A stretch of DNA of 64,000 nucleotides from Chthoniobacterales bacterium (GTDB taxonomy: Bacteria > Verrucomicrobiota > Verrucomicrobiia > Chthoniobacterales > DASVRZ01). Below, piece after piece: positions 27,673 through 37,069 of the stretch (its first letter is position 1; each line of letters begins with the position of its first letter). The notes beneath the pieces were generated by a model. That model did no database searches. It was not told where the DNA came from and was given only the letters and a program-made list of their open reading frames with translations. The DNA lies in the NCBI GenBank assembly GCA_039930045.1, contig JBDSQB010000015.1:1-64000 (forward strand), given 5' to 3'. Position numbers and translations under genes: made by a program.

Positions 27673-27849
27673 ATGCCAGACCGATTGCAAAAGCCGTTGG
27701 TTCCCATGCCGGGCGGCCCAAATCATCCCTCCGACCAAGGCCCGAAATCGCCGACCGCGCCGCGTCCCGACACTCAGGAGTTGCTCAAGCGCATGCGCAA
27801 AGTGGACCCCGAGCAATCGAAGCGTTACCGCCAGCGCACCGGGCAATAA
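27673..27849 (+). CDS. ubact: Ubiquitin-like protein UBact (Pup-like proteasome tag)
   Basis: A 58-residue protein, rich in Pro and charged residues and probably disordered, ending KVDPEQSKRYRQRTGQ. This tail matches the UBact family, the Pup-like modifier reported in Verrucomicrobia, Nitrospirae and a few other Gram-negative phyla. It ends in Gly-Gln, so by analogy with Pup the glutamine would need deamidation by a Dop-like enzyme before PafA-like ligation to substrate lysines. Its stop codon abuts the prcB start with no spacer, strong support for a shared operon. No SD consensus is obvious upstream. No pafA, dop or mpa/ARC gene lies in this window. Confidence 0.93.
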   Translation: MPDRLQKPLVPMPGGPNHPSDQGPKSPTAPRPDTQELLKRMRKVDPEQSKRYRQRTGQ

Positions 27850-28647
27850 ATGTCTGACTCCGCCCAGTTTTCCGGTAGCGGCATTTCGGGCGATTTCCCG
27901 GAGGTGTTGCAGCGTTATGGAGTCACGTCGCTGCCCTCACTTTCGTTGCATGGAAAAGAATTTACCCAGACGCAGGCTACGACCATTCTCGCCATCAAAT
28001 ACGCGGGCGGCGTCCTTATCGCCGGTGATCGCCGCGCGACTGCCGGAAATGTGGTCGTCTATGATCGCGCCGATAAGGTTCTGGAGATCGACCGTTTCTC
28101 CGTCATGGCCATCGCGGGTGTCCCGGCGACGGCTTGGGAAATGGCGCGGGTGCTGGAGCATTCGTTTCACTTCTATCGGCGCACGCAGCTTCAGGAAATG
28201 AGCGTCGATGGCAAGGTCCGCACGCTCTCGAAATTGCTCCGCGACAACCTCGGGCTCGCTCTGCAAGGCGTCGGCGTCGTGGTGCCGATTTTCGCCGTCT
28301 ATGATAAGGATGCAACTCCGGGCGAGCGCCTCTATTTTTACGACGTGATGGGTGCGCAATTCGAGGTCGCCGATTTTGCGGTCAGCGGCTCGGGGTCACC
28401 CGCCGTTCGTGCCGTGCTGAATTACGAGAATCGCTGGGGCAAAAAACCGCTCGCCGACCGCAACGAAAAGGAAGCGATCTCACTGGCCCTCCGCGCCTTG
28501 GAAACGGCCGCCGAAACGGACACTGCGACCGGTGGATTCGACCGGCGTGCGAACATTCTGCCCATTCTAAAAACCGTCACCAAACTCGGCGTGCAGACGG
28601 TCGCTGATAACGTTCTAACTCCGCTCTACAAGAAAGGCCTCGCATGA
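27850..28647 (+). CDS. prcB: 20S proteasome beta subunit
   Basis: A 265-residue N-terminal-nucleophile protease subunit. A 43-residue propeptide ends before TTILAIKYAGGVLIAGDRR, so Thr44 becomes mature Thr1 after autocleavage. Catalytic partners are in register: Asp17 (GDRR, residue 60) and Lys33 (DRADK, residue 76). This predicts an active threonine protease rather than an HslV-like or decayed copy; the long propeptide and actinobacterial-like TTIxAxKYxGG motif fit PrcB, not HslV. It directly follows ubact and overlaps prcA by 4 bp (ATGA), giving the ubact-prcB-prcA order. Confidence 0.95.
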   Translation: MSDSAQFSGSGISGDFPEVLQRYGVTSLPSLSLHGKEFTQTQATTILAIKYAGGVLIAGDRRATAGNVVVYDRADKVLEIDRFSVMAIAGVPATAWEMARVLEHSFHFYRRTQLQEMSVDGKVRTLSKLLRDNLGLALQGVGVVVPIFAVYDKDATPGERLYFYDVMGAQFEVADFAVSGSGSPAVRAVLNYENRWGKKPLADRNEKEAISLALRALETAAETDTATGGFDRRANILPILKTVTKLGVQTVADNVLTPLYKKGLA

Positions 28648-29417
28648 CGGACGAGCCCTACCGTTACGTCGAGGCGATGGCGAATCGCCGTGAGTACGTT
28701 GAAACTCAACTCGTCGCCGCCAGCCCGGTCGTGGCCCTGAATTACAACGGCGGAATCCTCTTTCTAACCATTGCGCCGGAGCCGCAGAAAATCTTCGAGA
28801 TCTACGACCGCATCGCCCTCGGAGCGATGGGGCATCCGGGCGATGTCGAACGGCTGCGGATGACGGCCATTGAAATCGCCAGCGCGGAGGGATTTACGCG
28901 TTCGCCGGCGGATGTGTCGCTGCGGCGACTTGCGAATTTTTCCTTCAGTCCGCTGCTAAAAAACACCTTCGAGCAGGTCTATGGCTCGGTCTTCATCGTG
29001 CGCCTGCTTTTCGCGGAGTTAGGTGCGACTTCGAAGACGGATTTGTTTGTCCGAGTGGACTTCGATGGAACTCTGCAAACCGGCGGCGGCGCAACGAGGA
29101 AATCCTTCGGAGTATTAGGCGGAACCACGACGGCAGAGCAGGCGATGAATCAGTTTCTCCTAACCAAAGCGAAGCCCAATCTAACCTTGGACGCCGCCCT
29201 GCAAATCGCCCTCCTCACCTGGGCTGTTGGAAGCCAGGTCGAGCCCGTTGATTCACCAGACGAGGGGAAACTGACCGAGATCCTCCGCGACGCGCTGTCC
29301 TCGAAAGTGGTCGAGGCCGCCGTTCTCGATAGAAACACTGGCAGCAAGGTGAGCTATCGGACTTTAAATGAAATGGAACTCCGCAAAACCGTGAACCGGA
29401 TCACCCGAGAGCGTTGA
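28644..29417 (+). CDS. prcA: 20S proteasome alpha subunit
   Basis: A 257-residue subunit forming the outer gating rings of the 20S core. SVVALxYxGGxLF-type strands of the alpha family appear as SPVVALNYNGGILFLTIAP, then KIFEIYDRIALGAMGHPGD and, later, GGTTTAEQAMNQFL. It lacks an N-terminal Thr nucleophile, as expected. The N-terminus before the fold (MTDEPYRYVEAMANRREY) would form the gate and H0 helix. The C-terminus ends ITRER. Overlaps prcB by 4 bp. The following gene starts about 36 bp downstream and may be on the same transcript. Confidence 0.93.
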   Translation: MTDEPYRYVEAMANRREYVETQLVAASPVVALNYNGGILFLTIAPEPQKIFEIYDRIALGAMGHPGDVERLRMTAIEIASAEGFTRSPADVSLRRLANFSFSPLLKNTFEQVYGSVFIVRLLFAELGATSKTDLFVRVDFDGTLQTGGGATRKSFGVLGGTTTAEQAMNQFLLTKAKPNLTLDAALQIALLTWAVGSQVEPVDSPDEGKLTEILRDALSSKVVEAAVLDRNTGSKVSYRTLNEMELRKTVNRITRER

Positions 29418-31228: not shown

Positions 31229-32767
31229 ATGAGCAAATCCAAAAAAACTACTGGTCATTGTTTCCTCGTCGGCGCCGGACCGGGCGATCTGGGGCTGGTG
31301 ACATTGCGAGCGAAGGAGGCGGTCGAACTCGGCGATGTGCTGATTTACGACTACCTCTGCAACCCGGCGATGCTCCTTTGGGCGAAGCCGGACGCGGAGA
31401 AAATCTACGTCGGCAAAAAAGCCGGAGCGCACACGCTGACTCAGGATGAAATCAATGAATTGCTCGTCAAAAAGACGGCGGCCGGACTGCAAGTAGTGCG
31501 GTTGAAGGGTGGCGATCCTTTCATTTTTGGCCGGGGAGGGGAGGAGGCGCTGGCGCTGGCCGGTGCGAAATTGTCCTTCGAGATCGTGCCCGGAGTCAGC
31601 TCGGCGATCGCCGCACCAGCTTACGCAGGCATCCCGCTGACACATCGCGGACTGGCCACGCAGGTGACGTTTTTTACGGGTCACGAGGACCCGGCGAAAA
31701 CGGAGTCGAGTCTGGACTTTATGGAACTCGCCCGGCTGAAAGGGACCAAAGTCATGCTCATGGGAGTCGAACGGCTCAGCATTATCACAGGGAAATTTCT
31801 CGAAAATGGCGCGTCGCCAGAGACTCCAGTGACGCTGATTCGCTGGGGCACGACGCCGCGCCAGGAGACGCTTTCCGGCACTTTGGCCGACATCGCGGAA
31901 CTGGCGGAAAAGGCGAATTTCCAGGCTCCGGCGGTCGCTGTTTTTGGCGAAGTCGCGAAACTGCGAAACGAGTTGCAGTGGTATGACAACCGCCCGCTTT
32001 ACGGCAAGCGCATCGTCGTCACCCGCAGTCGCAAACAGGCCGGAGTCCTCACGAAAAGCCTCACCGACCTCGGCGCTGACGTCATCGAAATCCCCACAAT
32101 TCGCACGGAGCCGCCGACGAATCTCCGGGAGTTTGCCGAGATGGTTCGCGACGCGCACACTTACGACTGGCTGATTTTCACGAGTCCGAACGCAGTCGAG
32201 GCGTTCTTTGAAATGTTTTACCGCATCTATCGGGATGCCCGGGAAATCGGCGGCACGCGCATTGCGGCGGTCGGCCCGGCCACGGCCAAAAAAATCACCG
32301 AATATCACCTCAAAGTGGACGTGCAACCGGATGAATTTGTCCCGGAAGCCATCGTTGATGCCCTGCGGAAAGAGGGCGACATCGAAAATTTGCGCGTCCT
32401 CATTCCACGAGCCGAAGTGACCCGGGAAATCCTGGCCACCATGCTGACCAAGCTCGGCGCGATCGTGGACGAGACCATCGCCTACCGGACCGTTCCGGAA
32501 ACGGAGGACACCTCGGGTGCGCTGGCGAGGTTCGATGCGGGGGAGGCGGATTTGATCACCTTCACCAGTTCCTCGACCGTGGAAAACTTCCTCGCGCTGC
32601 GTCCGAAGCTTCCCAAGACTCTCAAAACTGCAAGCATCGGGCCGCAGACCACGCAAACTTTGCGAAAAGCGGGGATCGTTCCAGACATGGAGGCGGTGAA
32701 GCACGACGTGCCGGGTTTGGTCACCGTCATCCTGCGAGAGCTGGGCCAGGCGCGTTCTTCTCGATAG
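31229..32767 (+). CDS. cobA-hemD: Uroporphyrinogen-III C-methyltransferase / uroporphyrinogen-III synthase fusion
   Basis: A 512-residue bifunctional tetrapyrrole enzyme. Residues about 10-245 are the SAM-dependent SUMT domain (VGAGPGDLGLVTLRA, LKGGDPFIFGRGGEE, VPGVSSAIAAPAYAGIPLTH), making precorrin-2 for siroheme and cobalamin. Residues about 262-505 are HemD (RIVVTRSRKQAG, TSPNAVEAFF, TFTSSSTVENFL), which closes hydroxymethylbilane into uroporphyrinogen III. The ATG at 31229 begins the SUMT domain. Such fusions are known in several phyla. No other heme or cobalamin gene is nearby. Confidence 0.93.
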   Translation: MSKSKKTTGHCFLVGAGPGDLGLVTLRAKEAVELGDVLIYDYLCNPAMLLWAKPDAEKIYVGKKAGAHTLTQDEINELLVKKTAAGLQVVRLKGGDPFIFGRGGEEALALAGAKLSFEIVPGVSSAIAAPAYAGIPLTHRGLATQVTFFTGHEDPAKTESSLDFMELARLKGTKVMLMGVERLSIITGKFLENGASPETPVTLIRWGTTPRQETLSGTLADIAELAEKANFQAPAVAVFGEVAKLRNELQWYDNRPLYGKRIVVTRSRKQAGVLTKSLTDLGADVIEIPTIRTEPPTNLREFAEMVRDAHTYDWLIFTSPNAVEAFFEMFYRIYRDAREIGGTRIAAVGPATAKKITEYHLKVDVQPDEFVPEAIVDALRKEGDIENLRVLIPRAEVTREILATMLTKLGAIVDETIAYRTVPETEDTSGALARFDAGEADLITFTSSSTVENFLALRPKLPKTLKTASIGPQTTQTLRKAGIVPDMEAVKHDVPGLVTVILRELGQARSSR

Positions 32768-32828: not shown

Positions 32829-33797
32829 ATGGTCGGCGATGACATTATCAGCTCACAAAAAAACACCCCCTCGAACTCCGAAAACGACGTCGTGATCAAC
32901 GTTCCCTTTCCCTACACCCCGGAAACGGACGAACCAGTCGCGCCAACTTCGGAACCAACCCTGAAAATCGATTACACCGCGATTGAGATTCCGCCGCCGA
33001 AGAAAACGATCCCGGTTCGCCGCACGGCGCAGCAAACCCGGCTCGTGCGCCTCGAAAACAGCCTGAACGCCGACATTTCCAAACCGCCGGAAATCATTCC
33101 ATCTCCGATCAAAAAAACGCCGCACGCACCGGAGCCGGAGCCGAGTGGAGATATTTCCGAGACGATTCATAAACTGGTAAAAAGCGTGGGATCGATCAGC
33201 CTCGCGACCCAGGAAAACCAGCGTCAATACGCCGCCATTGCCACTTCGCTGGAGAAACAATCAGGGGCGCTGCCGAAACTGGAGGCGCTCCAAAAACACC
33301 TCGACCACAGTCACAAAGTCGAGACGGCCAACCAGCGTCTTTTCGACGTAATGCACAGCGAGTTGAAGGGGTACAAGGACAATTTCCTCTTCGACGCCCT
33401 GCAAAAACCCGTCATTCGCGACCTGCTTGCGCTCTTCGACGACCTCTGCGGGCAAGGTCGGCGCATCGGGCGTTTTCTAAAGGAGAATGCGATGGAACCC
33501 GACTCAGCGGTGAACTGGAGCACCGAGTTGCAGTCGTCCCAGGACAACATCAACAACACCGTTTTCTTCATCATCGAAGTCCTTAATCGTCTCGACGTCA
33601 TCATGATGGAGGGCGACAACACCGTCCTCGACCTGAAGCTGCACAAGGTCGTCGGCGTCGAGCCCACGAGCGATCTGGCGGAGAAAAATCAGGTCGTCCG
33701 CGTCGTGCGCCCCGGTTTCATCTGGAAAGATCGCGTTTTGCGCCCGACTGAGGTCATTATCAAAAAATACACCGCGCCGGAAGCCGACGTCGCCTAA
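32829..33797 (+). CDS. GrpE-like nucleotide exchange factor with long N-terminal extension
   Basis: A 322-residue protein. ATG 32829 is chosen (purine-rich AGAGGG just upstream) over a TTG 30 bp earlier. Residues 1-110 are Pro/Lys/Glu-rich, probably disordered. Residues about 120-200 form a likely coiled coil, and the end shows the GrpE beta-domain pattern: VVRPGFIWKDRVLRPTEVII. The helical core is longer and more divergent than in canonical ~200-residue GrpE, so this may be a specialised exchange factor for the adjacent Hsp70. The gene is 33 bp upstream of the Hsp70 gene. Family assignment rests on pattern and context. Confidence 0.72.
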   Translation: MVGDDIISSQKNTPSNSENDVVINVPFPYTPETDEPVAPTSEPTLKIDYTAIEIPPPKKTIPVRRTAQQTRLVRLENSLNADISKPPEIIPSPIKKTPHAPEPEPSGDISETIHKLVKSVGSISLATQENQRQYAAIATSLEKQSGALPKLEALQKHLDHSHKVETANQRLFDVMHSELKGYKDNFLFDALQKPVIRDLLALFDDLCGQGRRIGRFLKENAMEPDSAVNWSTELQSSQDNINNTVFFIIEVLNRLDVIMMEGDNTVLDLKLHKVVGVEPTSDLAEKNQVVRVVRPGFIWKDRVLRPTEVIIKKYTAPEADVA

Positions 33798-33830
33798 ATC
33801 CTTTCTTCAATACCTTAAAACCACACGAGT

Positions 33831-35396
33831 ATGTCTGACACACGCAAAGCAGTAGGAATCGATTTGGGCACCACCTTTTCGGCCATCGCCCACATCGACG
33901 CCTACGGAAAACCGCAAATCATTCCCAATGCCGAGAGCGAACGCATCACGCCATCGGTGATTCTTTTCGACGGCAGTAACGCCATTGTCGGCACGCTGGC
34001 CAAGCAAAATTCCGTCGCCGAGCCGGAGAAAATCGTCGATTTCGTCAAACGCGAAATGGGCAAAAGCAAGACCGCCTTTCATCGCGAATTCGACGGGCGC
34101 ACCTTCTCCGCCGAGGAACTTTCCGCGCTGATTCTCAAGAAACTCAAGATCGACGCGGAGAAATATCTCGGCGAATCCGTCACCGACGCCGTGATCACGG
34201 TCCCGGCCTATTTCAACGACGCCGAACGTCTCGCCACGATTCACGCGGGCCAGCTTGCGGGTTTCAACGTCCTGCAAATCATCAACGAGCCGACTGCCGG
34301 TTCGCTCGCCTACGGCCTCGACAAACTGGACGAGGACCAGACCGTTTTCGTCTTCGATTTGGGCGGGGGCACCTTCGACGTCACGATCATGCGGATCGAA
34401 AATCATCACATCCAGATGATCGCCACCAACGGCGACCACCGTCTCGGCGGCAAGGATTGGGACGACATCATTGTCAATCTGGTCGCGGACGAGTTTGATC
34501 GCGTTCACGGGGAAAATCCGCTGCTCGACTTGCAGAGTTATCAGGATCTCCAAAGCCGCGCGCTCGCCGCCAAAATCCAGCTTTCCAGCCGTCAGCGCAC
34601 GGCGCTCGTTCACAGTTACAACGGCAAAAGCGTTAAGATCGAGCTCACCCGTCAGGACTTTGAAAACCTTTCCGGCCACCTCATCGAGAAGTGCAAATCC
34701 ATCTGCGAAATCGTCATGCAGGAAGCCAAAATGAACTGGGGCCAAATCGACAAAGTCCTGCTCGTTGGCGGCATGACTCGCATGCCGATGGTCCGCGACA
34801 TGATCGCCGCTCTCAGCAACGCCCCGACGGCCGACGAGGTCAGTCCCGACGAGGCCGTGTCCCTTGGCGCGGCGATTCAGGCGATTTTGCTCGTCCTCGG
34901 CGAAGAAGACACCTCCGGCCAGCACACGCTCCCGGCAGAAACGCGCCAGCAATTTTCCAATCGCGACGGCTCGCTCATCAAGGTCTCGAACATCACCTCG
35001 CACACCCTCGGAGTGGTCCTCTGGGACGACAATCGCATGGAGGAATACGTCTTCCCGATGATCAACAAAATGACCGCGATTCCGTGCGAATTGAAGAATT
35101 CCTTCGGCACCGCCACGGCCAACATGAAGAGCGTCGTCGTCCGCGTCGTCGAGGGCGAAAGCTCACTTCCCAGCGAATGCACGCCGCTCGGCACCGCCGC
35201 ATTTGAGTTGCCTCCGTATCTGCCGAAAGGCTCGCCGGTGGAATTGACTTATCGCTACAACGCGAGCCAGATTCTCGAAGTCGTCGTGGATGGTTTTGGC
35301 AAGCAAAAGGTCATCGAGATTCAACGAAACATGGGGCTTTCCGAGGAGGAAATCGCCCAGGCCACAGCCAACATGTCGCTTATTCGCGTAGAATAA
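33831..35396 (+). CDS. Hsp70-family chaperone, lid-less (DnaK-like)
   Basis: A 521-residue protein. The nucleotide-binding domain is intact: GIDLGTTFSAIAHID (phosphate 1), NEPTAGSLAYGLD, FDLGGGTFDVTIM (phosphate 2) and LVGGMTRMPMVR (adenosine motif). A beta-type substrate-binding domain follows (about 375-500), but the helical lid and EEVD-like tail of ~610-640-residue DnaK are absent. This fits the shortened Hsp70 homologues of the HscA/YegD-like spread, not the housekeeping DnaK. It sits between a GrpE-like gene and a J-like/FGE-like gene. No dnaJ proper is present. Confidence 0.88.
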   Translation: MSDTRKAVGIDLGTTFSAIAHIDAYGKPQIIPNAESERITPSVILFDGSNAIVGTLAKQNSVAEPEKIVDFVKREMGKSKTAFHREFDGRTFSAEELSALILKKLKIDAEKYLGESVTDAVITVPAYFNDAERLATIHAGQLAGFNVLQIINEPTAGSLAYGLDKLDEDQTVFVFDLGGGTFDVTIMRIENHHIQMIATNGDHRLGGKDWDDIIVNLVADEFDRVHGENPLLDLQSYQDLQSRALAAKIQLSSRQRTALVHSYNGKSVKIELTRQDFENLSGHLIEKCKSICEIVMQEAKMNWGQIDKVLLVGGMTRMPMVRDMIAALSNAPTADEVSPDEAVSLGAAIQAILLVLGEEDTSGQHTLPAETRQQFSNRDGSLIKVSNITSHTLGVVLWDDNRMEEYVFPMINKMTAIPCELKNSFGTATANMKSVVVRVVEGESSLPSECTPLGTAAFELPPYLPKGSPVELTYRYNASQILEVVVDGFGKQKVIEIQRNMGLSEEEIAQATANMSLIRVE

Positions 35397-35428
35397 ATCC
35401 ACTCTTCGTCCCCCTTTAGAGTTTACCC

Positions 35429-37069
35429 ATGTCGCTGCCGTCTCCACTCCCAGATGACCCCCGCAAATGGACTGGTTGGAAGAACTACAACTCGCAAAAT
35501 TTCTACGAGCGTCTCTGCCTCAGCGTTGAGCAAAATCCGAGCAACGAGCTGATCGAGGATCACACCCGACAGCTCCTGGTCTGGTGGCAAAAGAAGCTCC
35601 CGCTGAAGAACCAGCCGAGCAATCCGCTCGCTCAGATCCTGCGCGACGGGCTCGATGTTGCCCCGAGTTTTCTGGCCGAGGCGCGCCTGGGACTTTGCAA
35701 TCCAGTCACCCGCAAGACGATTGACGAGAGCCTTCTCGCCTCGGCGAAAACGTCGATGACGGCGGAGTTTCGCCGTGTGTTTTCCATCATCGCCGCCGGC
35801 AACGAACTGAGCGAGGACGGCGAGGCGAGTCTGCTGCGCTTCGGGCTGAAACATGGCTTTTCCGAAGAGGAAGTTGCCGCGTTGATCGGGGAGGAAATGG
35901 CCTCGCAAAACGTCACCCGCATCGTCCGGGAAGCCGCCCCGCCGCCGCCACAGGCGAGTTCCATTCCAATCTCCAGCGCCGCACCCGGTGGCAACGACCC
36001 GGTTGCCGAGTTTAAGCGTTTTCTAAAACTGAGCGGTCTCGACAGTGACAGCATGACGGACGATCAGCGCGACGCCCTCATCAACATGGCCGAAAACCTC
36101 GGTCTCAACGGCGGCGACGCCGAGGACATCGTGGACGATTACCTGGAGGAACTCGACTCGCAGCCGCAGAAGCCCGGTGCCACGGTGCCACCTCCGACGC
36201 CATTGCGCTCGCCCTCGCCCGCCCCCATCAAATCGAGTCCCGTCGCCAAACCGGGCGCGCCCGCCGCCGTCCGTCCGAATACCCCGCGCATCACCACCAC
36301 CATTTCTCCGGCGGAAGAGCGCAGCAAATACCCGAATTTCACCAACACCCTCGGCCAGCAACTCCTCCTCGTCCCCTCCGGCACCTTCCTCATGGGCAGC
36401 ACGGAACCCGACGCCGCGCCCAACGAAGGCCCGTGCAACAAGGTCACCGTGAGCCGCTTTTACATGAGCCGCCACCCAGCGACGTGCGCCGTTTACGAGC
36501 AATTCAGTCCGGCGCACCGGTCGAATCGCATCCCGCTCGCGGGGGATAATCACCCCGTGCTCTACGTCAGCAGCGCTGATGCGATCAAGTTTTGCCAGTG
36601 GCTCAGTCAAAAGGAACGCCGCAAGTATCGGCTGCCGACTGAGGCCGAATGGGAATACGCCGCGCGCGGCACCGACAATCGTATCTACCCTTGGGGCGAC
36701 CATCTCAACAACCCAGGCGCGCTGGGCAATTTCGCGGACGCCAACACGAAGTTTTCCTGGAGCGACATGGAGGTGAACGACGGATTCGCCGAGACGTCGC
36801 CCGTCGGCCAATATCCGCGCGGAGCCAGCGCCTTCGGCATCGAAGACATGGCTGGGAACGTCTGGGAATGGTGCAACGACTACTTTGAAAACTACAAACC
36901 GAACGACCGCATAAATCCCAAGGGGCCGATGAACGGCACGAAACGCGTCTATCGCGGCGGAAGCTGGAAGTCGCGTTTCAGCAGCCTCCGGGCGACCAGC
37001 CGCAACTCGAACACGGTCGATTACCGCTGCAACGACCTCGGTTTCCGGATCGTCTGCGAGTGCGAGTAA
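35429..37069 (+). CDS. J-domain-like / tandem helical repeat / FGE-sulfatase-fold protein
   Basis: A 546-residue protein with four parts. Residues 23-101 (FYERLCLS, IEDHTRQLLVWWQKKLP, then NPVTRKTID) follow a J-domain layout, but the HPD position is not conserved. Residues 111-160 and 191-243 are two similar helical repeats (EFRRVFSIIAAGNELSEDGE and EFKRFLKLSGLDSDSMTDDQ). A Pro-rich linker runs from about 244 to 300. Residues 303-545 are an FGE/SUMF1 fold (YRLPTEAEWEYAARG, DMAGNVWEWCND, YRGGSWKSRF). The cysteines that catalyse formylglycine formation are replaced, Ser and Leu standing at the human C336/C341 positions, so it is unlikely to activate sulfatases. Probably a cochaperone or binding protein of the preceding Hsp70. 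Confidence 0.8.
   Translation: MSLPSPLPDDPRKWTGWKNYNSQNFYERLCLSVEQNPSNELIEDHTRQLLVWWQKKLPLKNQPSNPLAQILRDGLDVAPSFLAEARLGLCNPVTRKTIDESLLASAKTSMTAEFRRVFSIIAAGNELSEDGEASLLRFGLKHGFSEEEVAALIGEEMASQNVTRIVREAAPPPPQASSIPISSAAPGGNDPVAEFKRFLKLSGLDSDSMTDDQRDALINMAENLGLNGGDAEDIVDDYLEELDSQPQKPGATVPPPTPLRSPSPAPIKSSPVAKPGAPAAVRPNTPRITTTISPAEERSKYPNFTNTLGQQLLLVPSGTFLMGSTEPDAAPNEGPCNKVTVSRFYMSRHPATCAVYEQFSPAHRSNRIPLAGDNHPVLYVSSADAIKFCQWLSQKERRKYRLPTEAEWEYAARGTDNRIYPWGDHLNNPGALGNFADANTKFSWSDMEVNDGFAETSPVGQYPRGASAFGIEDMAGNVWEWCNDYFENYKPNDRINPKGPMNGTKRVYRGGSWKSRFSSLRATSRNSNTVDYRCNDLGFRIVCECE

Follow-up and report, generated by a model that had tools for sequence, protein, structure and literature searches.

The window, a stretch of 64,000 nucleotides from contig JBDSQB010000015.1 of a Chthoniobacterales bacterium (GCA_039930045.1), carries three adjacent genes on one strand (32829-37069), which encode a GrpE-like protein, an Hsp70 without a lid, and a protein that joins a J-like N-terminus to an FGE-type C-terminus. 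The intergenic gaps are 33 bp between the GrpE-like and Hsp70 genes and 32 bp between the Hsp70 and J-like/FGE genes, and a cobA/hemD fusion gene ends 61 bp ahead of the GrpE-like gene (Table 1). The first-pass annotation had proposed the trio as a possible chaperone system, and the reading frames, spacing and GrpE, Hsp70 and FGE domains it described agree with the coordinates, gaps and Pfam matches reported here.

Table 1 Genes and features of the trio locus, with positions in the window.
Feature	Position	Strand	Size or basis
cobA/hemD fusion (uroporphyrinogen-III methyltransferase/synthase)	31229-32767	+	Pfam HEM4, TP_methylase
GrpE-like gene	32829-33797	+	322 aa; Pfam GrpE 2.6e-13
Lidless Hsp70 gene	33831-35396	+	521 aa; Pfam HSP70 1.6e-122
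Q149 codon, equivalent to DnaK R167 (contacted by HPD-Asp)	34275-34277	+	Family alignment
R188 codon, equivalent to DnaK E206 (J-domain electrostatic contact), charge reversed	34392-34394	+	Family alignment
J-like/FGE gene	35429-37069	+	546 aa; Pfam FGE-sulfatase 4.4e-53
J-like domain, residues 20-103	35486-35737	+	VIA-align rows and end signature
LPL (residues 57-59), at the HPD tripeptide position	35597-35605	+	Family count and profile alignment
Two related helical units, residues ~106-165 and ~188-246	35744-36166	+	hhalign
FGE-type (C-type-lectin-like) domain, residues 304-546, without the catalytic Cys pair	36338-37069	+	Foldseek

GrpE homology in the first protein covers residues 149-313 of 322 and scores above the Pfam cut-off (50.4 bits vs. 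25.8), and the family profile matches the solved GrpE structures 1dkg and 4ani. By homology the protein is a GrpE-type nucleotide-exchange factor, with exchange activity predicted. The long, low-complexity N-terminus that had been pointed out is present, but relatives are mostly 204-300 aa long, and the very long tail is peculiar to the source genome.

Because the genome also encodes an ordinary dnaK (contig 2), dnaJ and grpE (adjoining on contig 5), the trio on contig 15 is an addition to the normal chaperone set. The only other J-domain gene is a DnaJ on contig 10, and HPD is present in both ordinary J proteins; the location of the two genes bears out the earlier remark that no dnaJ lies near the trio. 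A second full-length Hsp70 is found on contig 6, where a short HscB-like protein (L063:2838-3395), with no Pfam match and apparently without an HPD loop, is encoded directly upstream, and with this Hsp70 it may make up another degenerate J/Hsp70 pair. Within the window, the ubiquitin-like protein UBact (58 aa; NCBIfam UBact 5.2e-21, reaching its cut-off) is encoded directly before proteasome beta-like and alpha-like genes that score below their model cut-offs, and this region (27673-29417) is a known UBact-proteasome locus.

The J-like domain and its partner Hsp70

We assessed the N-terminus of the third protein, which had been thought to resemble a J-domain, with models of both sequence and structure. 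The Pfam J model matched none of 23 members at E-values up to 5, and neither a J-domain nor a defence system was assigned by Pfam, NCBIfam or PADLOC. Searching PDB sequences with a profile of the N-terminus returned nothing credible, so a structure was needed. FGE matches dominated the Foldseek results for the full-length protein, and we therefore modelled the N-terminus by itself. For residues 1-168, AlphaFold2 gave a pLDDT of 93, and Foldseek placed J-domains at ranks 1-3 with probabilities of 0.85-0.97, albeit with non-significant E-values (0.87 at probability 0.97). In VIA-align comparisons of residues ~22-103, the first 27 rows were J-domains without exception, at Z 6.3-8.8 and with an rmsd of mostly 1.6-4.0 across 60-84 residues, and the next, unrelated row scored 5.3. 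The A-x3-L-x5-R-x3-D signature at the end of the domain was retained in 63 of 64 J-like domains. The nearly unbroken run of J-domains together with the retained signature makes the assignment credible, such that a four-helix J-like fold at the N-terminus is supported rather than proven by the model, with Z-scores that are middling for a small helical fold. The earlier suggestion is thereby upheld, as structure prediction and structural comparison both give a J-like fold.

The HPD tripeptide was absent from the first 200 residues of all 64 J-like/FGE proteins. Its position is occupied by LPL in 63 members and LRL in one, and a profile alignment sets LPLKNQ on HPDRNQ (a single comparison, E 0.016). 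As shown by these counts and alignments, the predicted J-like domain has lost HPD. In the J/Hsp70 pairs tested so far, HPD mutation has always abolished stimulation (PMC8215388), and the J-like domain may therefore not be a trigger at all.

The Hsp70 comprises a complete nucleotide-binding domain (NBD), a linker insertion of ~24 residues and the SBD-beta, and has no SBD-alpha lid. Its Pfam HSP70 match spans profile positions 1-512 of 599, with the DnaK alignment continuing through the beta sandwich, and only 24 residues lie past the site aligned with E. coli DnaK 502 in 60 of 60 members, compared to 145 in the source genome's own DnaK. The absence of the lid noted at first pass is shared by all 60 aligned members. 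Alignment with E. coli DnaK further showed that the catalytic residues D8, K70, E171, D194 and T199 are kept in all 60 members, and with these residues intact the Hsp70 looks ATPase-competent. Lidless Hsp70s formed one clade in a tree of the NBD (support 100/100), on a long stem and apart from DnaK and the second Hsp70, with the program's warning of possible attraction between the two long-branched groups. In G003, G011, G013 and other genomes from families that lack the trio, two long proteins (~610-620 and 910-945 aa) that partially match the Hsp70 NBD are encoded side by side; these are another specialised Hsp70-like system of the order.

In DnaK, the HPD aspartate bonds with R167 and Q378, the HPD histidine bonds with L391, and the charged contacts include E206 (PMC8215388). 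In triggering the switch, the J-domain perturbs the contacts that R167 makes with D393 and D481 (PMC7289447). In the lidless family, the R167 equivalent was Q in 56 of 60 members and never R, E206 was replaced by R in 54 and D393 by N in 50, and the linker VLLLD was changed to I-(Q/K)-V-T-N with ~24 extra residues. As controls, 29 other full-length Hsp70s of the order kept R167, L391, L392 and D393 without exception and E206 in 27 cases. D481 carries no signal, since it is N in the lidless family and in the controls alike. The family alignment thus shows, at the level of residue identity, that the partner Hsp70 has lost the DnaK residues touched by HPD and helix II. Neither the loss of HPD nor the matching changes in the Hsp70 had been noticed in the first-pass annotation, and they are the most unusual part of the system. 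A reciprocal charge swap (helix II R22 to E43 against DnaK E206 to R188) was considered and set aside, as no evidence placed the two residues face to face.

A J-like fold with a degenerate HPD is also found in the type IV J-like proteins Pam16/Tim16 (Magmas). The J-like domain could accordingly serve in docking or regulation without driving the Hsp70 cycle, much like mitochondrial Pam16/Magmas, in which HPD is replaced by DKS and stimulation of its own Hsp70 is absent (PMC8605242), with one of the genome's two ordinary HPD-bearing J proteins acting as the ATPase trigger from elsewhere. Pam16, however, heterodimerises with the HPD-bearing Pam18 on an HPD-stimulated Hsp70 (PMC8605242), whereas no HPD-bearing J gene was found in the conserved trio cluster and the lidless Hsp70 is without the HPD contact residues. 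Having lost R167 and usually D393, through which an HPD J-domain acts on DnaK, this Hsp70 should respond poorly to an ordinary DnaJ, and these changes make help from one less likely. We consider a Pam16-like arrangement rather unlikely.

Conservation and gene neighbourhood

A peptide-pattern scan of 84,980 GTDB species genomes yielded 75 loci, with record titles of Chthoniobacterales/Spartobacteria or broader verrucomicrobial groups and a few binned as Prosthecobacter or only as PVC group; the named species Chthoniobacter flavus Ellin428 was among the genome records with a trio locus. The gene order GrpE-Hsp70-J-like/FGE was kept in 55 of the 75 loci. Another 14 contained only the Hsp70 and J-like/FGE genes (eight of them cut by contig ends) and six only the J-like/FGE gene, three of these cut by contig ends and three being stand-alone paralogues without adjacent Hsp70 or GrpE (L131, L135, L139). 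At least one of these paralogues, in L139, has LRL instead of LPL. In the Chthoniobacter flavus Ellin428 draft (L121), the Hsp70 gene and the J-like/FGE gene are both spread across more than one reading frame, through sequencing error or real decay.

Relatives of the J-like/FGE N-terminus were detected in 22 of 77 Chthoniobacterales genomes, and the lidless Hsp70 (presence threshold E below 1e-180) co-occurred with it in 22/22 carriers and 0/55 non-carriers (Fisher 1e-19, a statistic that ignores kinship among the genomes). The GrpE-like protein was found in 21 of the 22 pair-bearing genomes and in one fragmented genome. Its gene was absent beside the pair in six loci with room for it; in one genome it was on another contig, and one genome with such a locus had no GrpE of the family anywhere. 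In one subclade (L112, L113, L116, L126, L127), the GrpE-like gene has been lost from the cluster, and the lidless Hsp70 comes immediately after cobA/hemD. Conserved co-occurrence of the three genes, on which the initial proposal had depended, is therefore borne out by the 55 loci from other genomes and by the identical distribution of Hsp70 and J-like/FGE.

Profile searches of 286 genomes of the class recovered the full trio in one genome outside the order, and no further trio was revealed among 388 genomes searched from the phylum as a whole; besides this genome, the two sets of searches gave three chance-level matches. No relatives were found on the viral contigs scanned. By these searches the system is almost confined to Chthoniobacterales, with Planctomycetota covered by the peptide-pattern scan only, and the spread across Verrucomicrobiota and Planctomycetota first suggested was too wide.

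We also assessed the genes flanking the trio. cobA/hemD was directly upstream in 52 of the 75 loci, often overlapping the GrpE-like gene or less than 60 bp from it, and was preceded by a hemC-like gene in 35 loci and a hemA-like gene in 34 (both named from sequence). These overlaps and short gaps, together with the preceding hemC-like and hemA-like genes, indicate that in many members the trio and the tetrapyrrole genes probably share a transcript. In the window, cobA/hemD and the trio probably belong to one operon. The trio, at the end of a hemA-hemC-cobA/hemD cluster, might be a chaperone dedicated to the tetrapyrrole (heme/siroheme) pathway, with an unstable enzyme such as HemA as a conceivable client. 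Seven loci with full upstream sequence (L078, L092, L093, L097, L108, L128, L130) lack cobA/hemD, such that the link is not obligatory; the genome outside the order showed no cobA/hemD next to its trio, there is no hemA or hemC near the trio in the window, and the shared position may reflect common descent only. A role specific to tetrapyrroles is in our view unlikely. Downstream of the J-like/FGE gene, a secDF-like gene (named from sequence only) recurs on the opposite strand in 23 loci.

The FGE-type domain and a proposed dedicated machine

The J-like domain is followed by two helical units related to one another (hhalign E 4.5e-6) and by a C-terminal domain with an FGE fold, for which Foldseek matched human FGE (E ~2e-16) as well as PvdO and EgtB. 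The catalytic cysteine pair of FGE was found in none of 64 members; in the alignment to human FGE, the first (C336) is replaced by Ser and the second (C341) falls in a three-residue deletion. C389 and C482 are invariant across the family, and given these cysteines and the matches to PvdO and EgtB, the third protein could be an enzyme whose FGE-type fold catalyses another oxidation, like relatives of PvdO, EgtB and OvoA, with the Hsp70 pair helping its folding or activation. With the FGE pair gone and scores far below the cut-offs of the PvdO, EgtB and OvoA models, we regard such a catalytic role as improbable.

A fold without the activity has a precedent in SUMF2 (pFGE), the human FGE paralogue, to which both sequence and fold match (1y4j) and which lacks FGE activity. 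SUMF2 is a protein of the secreted pathway and is not known to be linked to an Hsp70 or a J-domain. True FGE binds unfolded sulfatase polypeptide. In the trio, the FGE-type C-terminus is among the most conserved regions of the third protein, which argues against a hypervariable target of a diversity-generating retroelement.

Hsp70, GrpE and J-fused partners also share neighbourhoods in GAP1-N2 systems, with FGE-type effectors in related systems; these centre on a GAP1-N2 GTPase and FNIII proteins, mainly in actinobacteria and firmicutes (PMC7159879), and neither element was seen beside the trio among the flanking window genes scanned. Although Kaur et al. 2020 described HSP70, GrpE and a DnaJ-fused FNIII protein in such neighbourhoods (PMC7159879), a conflict or anti-phage system of the GAP1-N2 or vWA-MoxR ternary type is very improbable here, as the window genes scanned included no GTPase, FNIII, MoxR, vWA or reverse-transcriptase gene, PADLOC gave no match, and the trio is vertically stable beside housekeeping genes with its would-be variable part, the FGE C-terminus, highly conserved.

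Compared to canonical DnaK-DnaJ-GrpE, the trio has the same three roles by fold (an Hsp70 NBD with all catalytic residues, a J-type fold and GrpE). It differs from DnaK in lacking the lid, in its altered and lengthened linker and in the changes at R167 and E206, and from DnaJ in that the J partner is without HPD and an FGE-type domain replaces the client-binding domains. Cyanobacterial DnaK1-DnaJ3-GrpE likewise serves a single cellular process (type IV pilus and polysaccharide secretion), but it is described as being of DnaK type with a DnaJ partner, and the abstract of that study mentions no FGE fusion or lidless Hsp70 (PMC9239167). CoCoNuT systems and bacterial DnaK duplications were considered as matches and rejected, as the published accounts concern different Hsp70s. 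Text searches of the open-access literature found no description of the trio.

That the three proteins work together, as had been proposed, is well supported by their co-occurrence and by the matched changes on both sides of the J/Hsp70 interface, as read from alignments. We consider it likely that they form a dedicated, self-contained Hsp70-J-NEF machine in which the J-switch has been rewired and a pseudo-FGE module binds the client, both function and clients being inferred. In such a machine, the FGE-type fold would, in line with the earlier suggestion, hold one or a few specific clients and bring them to the lidless SBD-beta, while the J-like domain would dock on its own Hsp70 by a rewired interface that does not depend on HPD, with hydrolysis triggered by other contacts or the domain simply tethering the client. 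Without a lid, client dwell time would be short and set mainly by the FGE-type domain and GrpE-driven exchange, and the GrpE-like protein would reset the cycle. With its interface changed, the machine would be insulated from ordinary DnaJ and DnaK in the same cell. More tentatively, and with somewhat more doubt than belief, we suggest that the J partner activates its Hsp70 without HPD, through a co-evolved switch that makes the machine orthogonal and closed to ordinary J proteins, with a dead enzyme fold selecting the client in the lid's place.

HPD is considered indispensable, yet here neither side of the contact is left and the ATPase site is intact, and this arrangement is kept across a bacterial order. 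The trio would show whether an Hsp70 cycle can run on another trigger or not, what the true need for the lid is, and how two Hsp70 machines may be insulated from one another, and it suggests polypeptide binding as a testable role for the inactive FGE-type fold, which is common.
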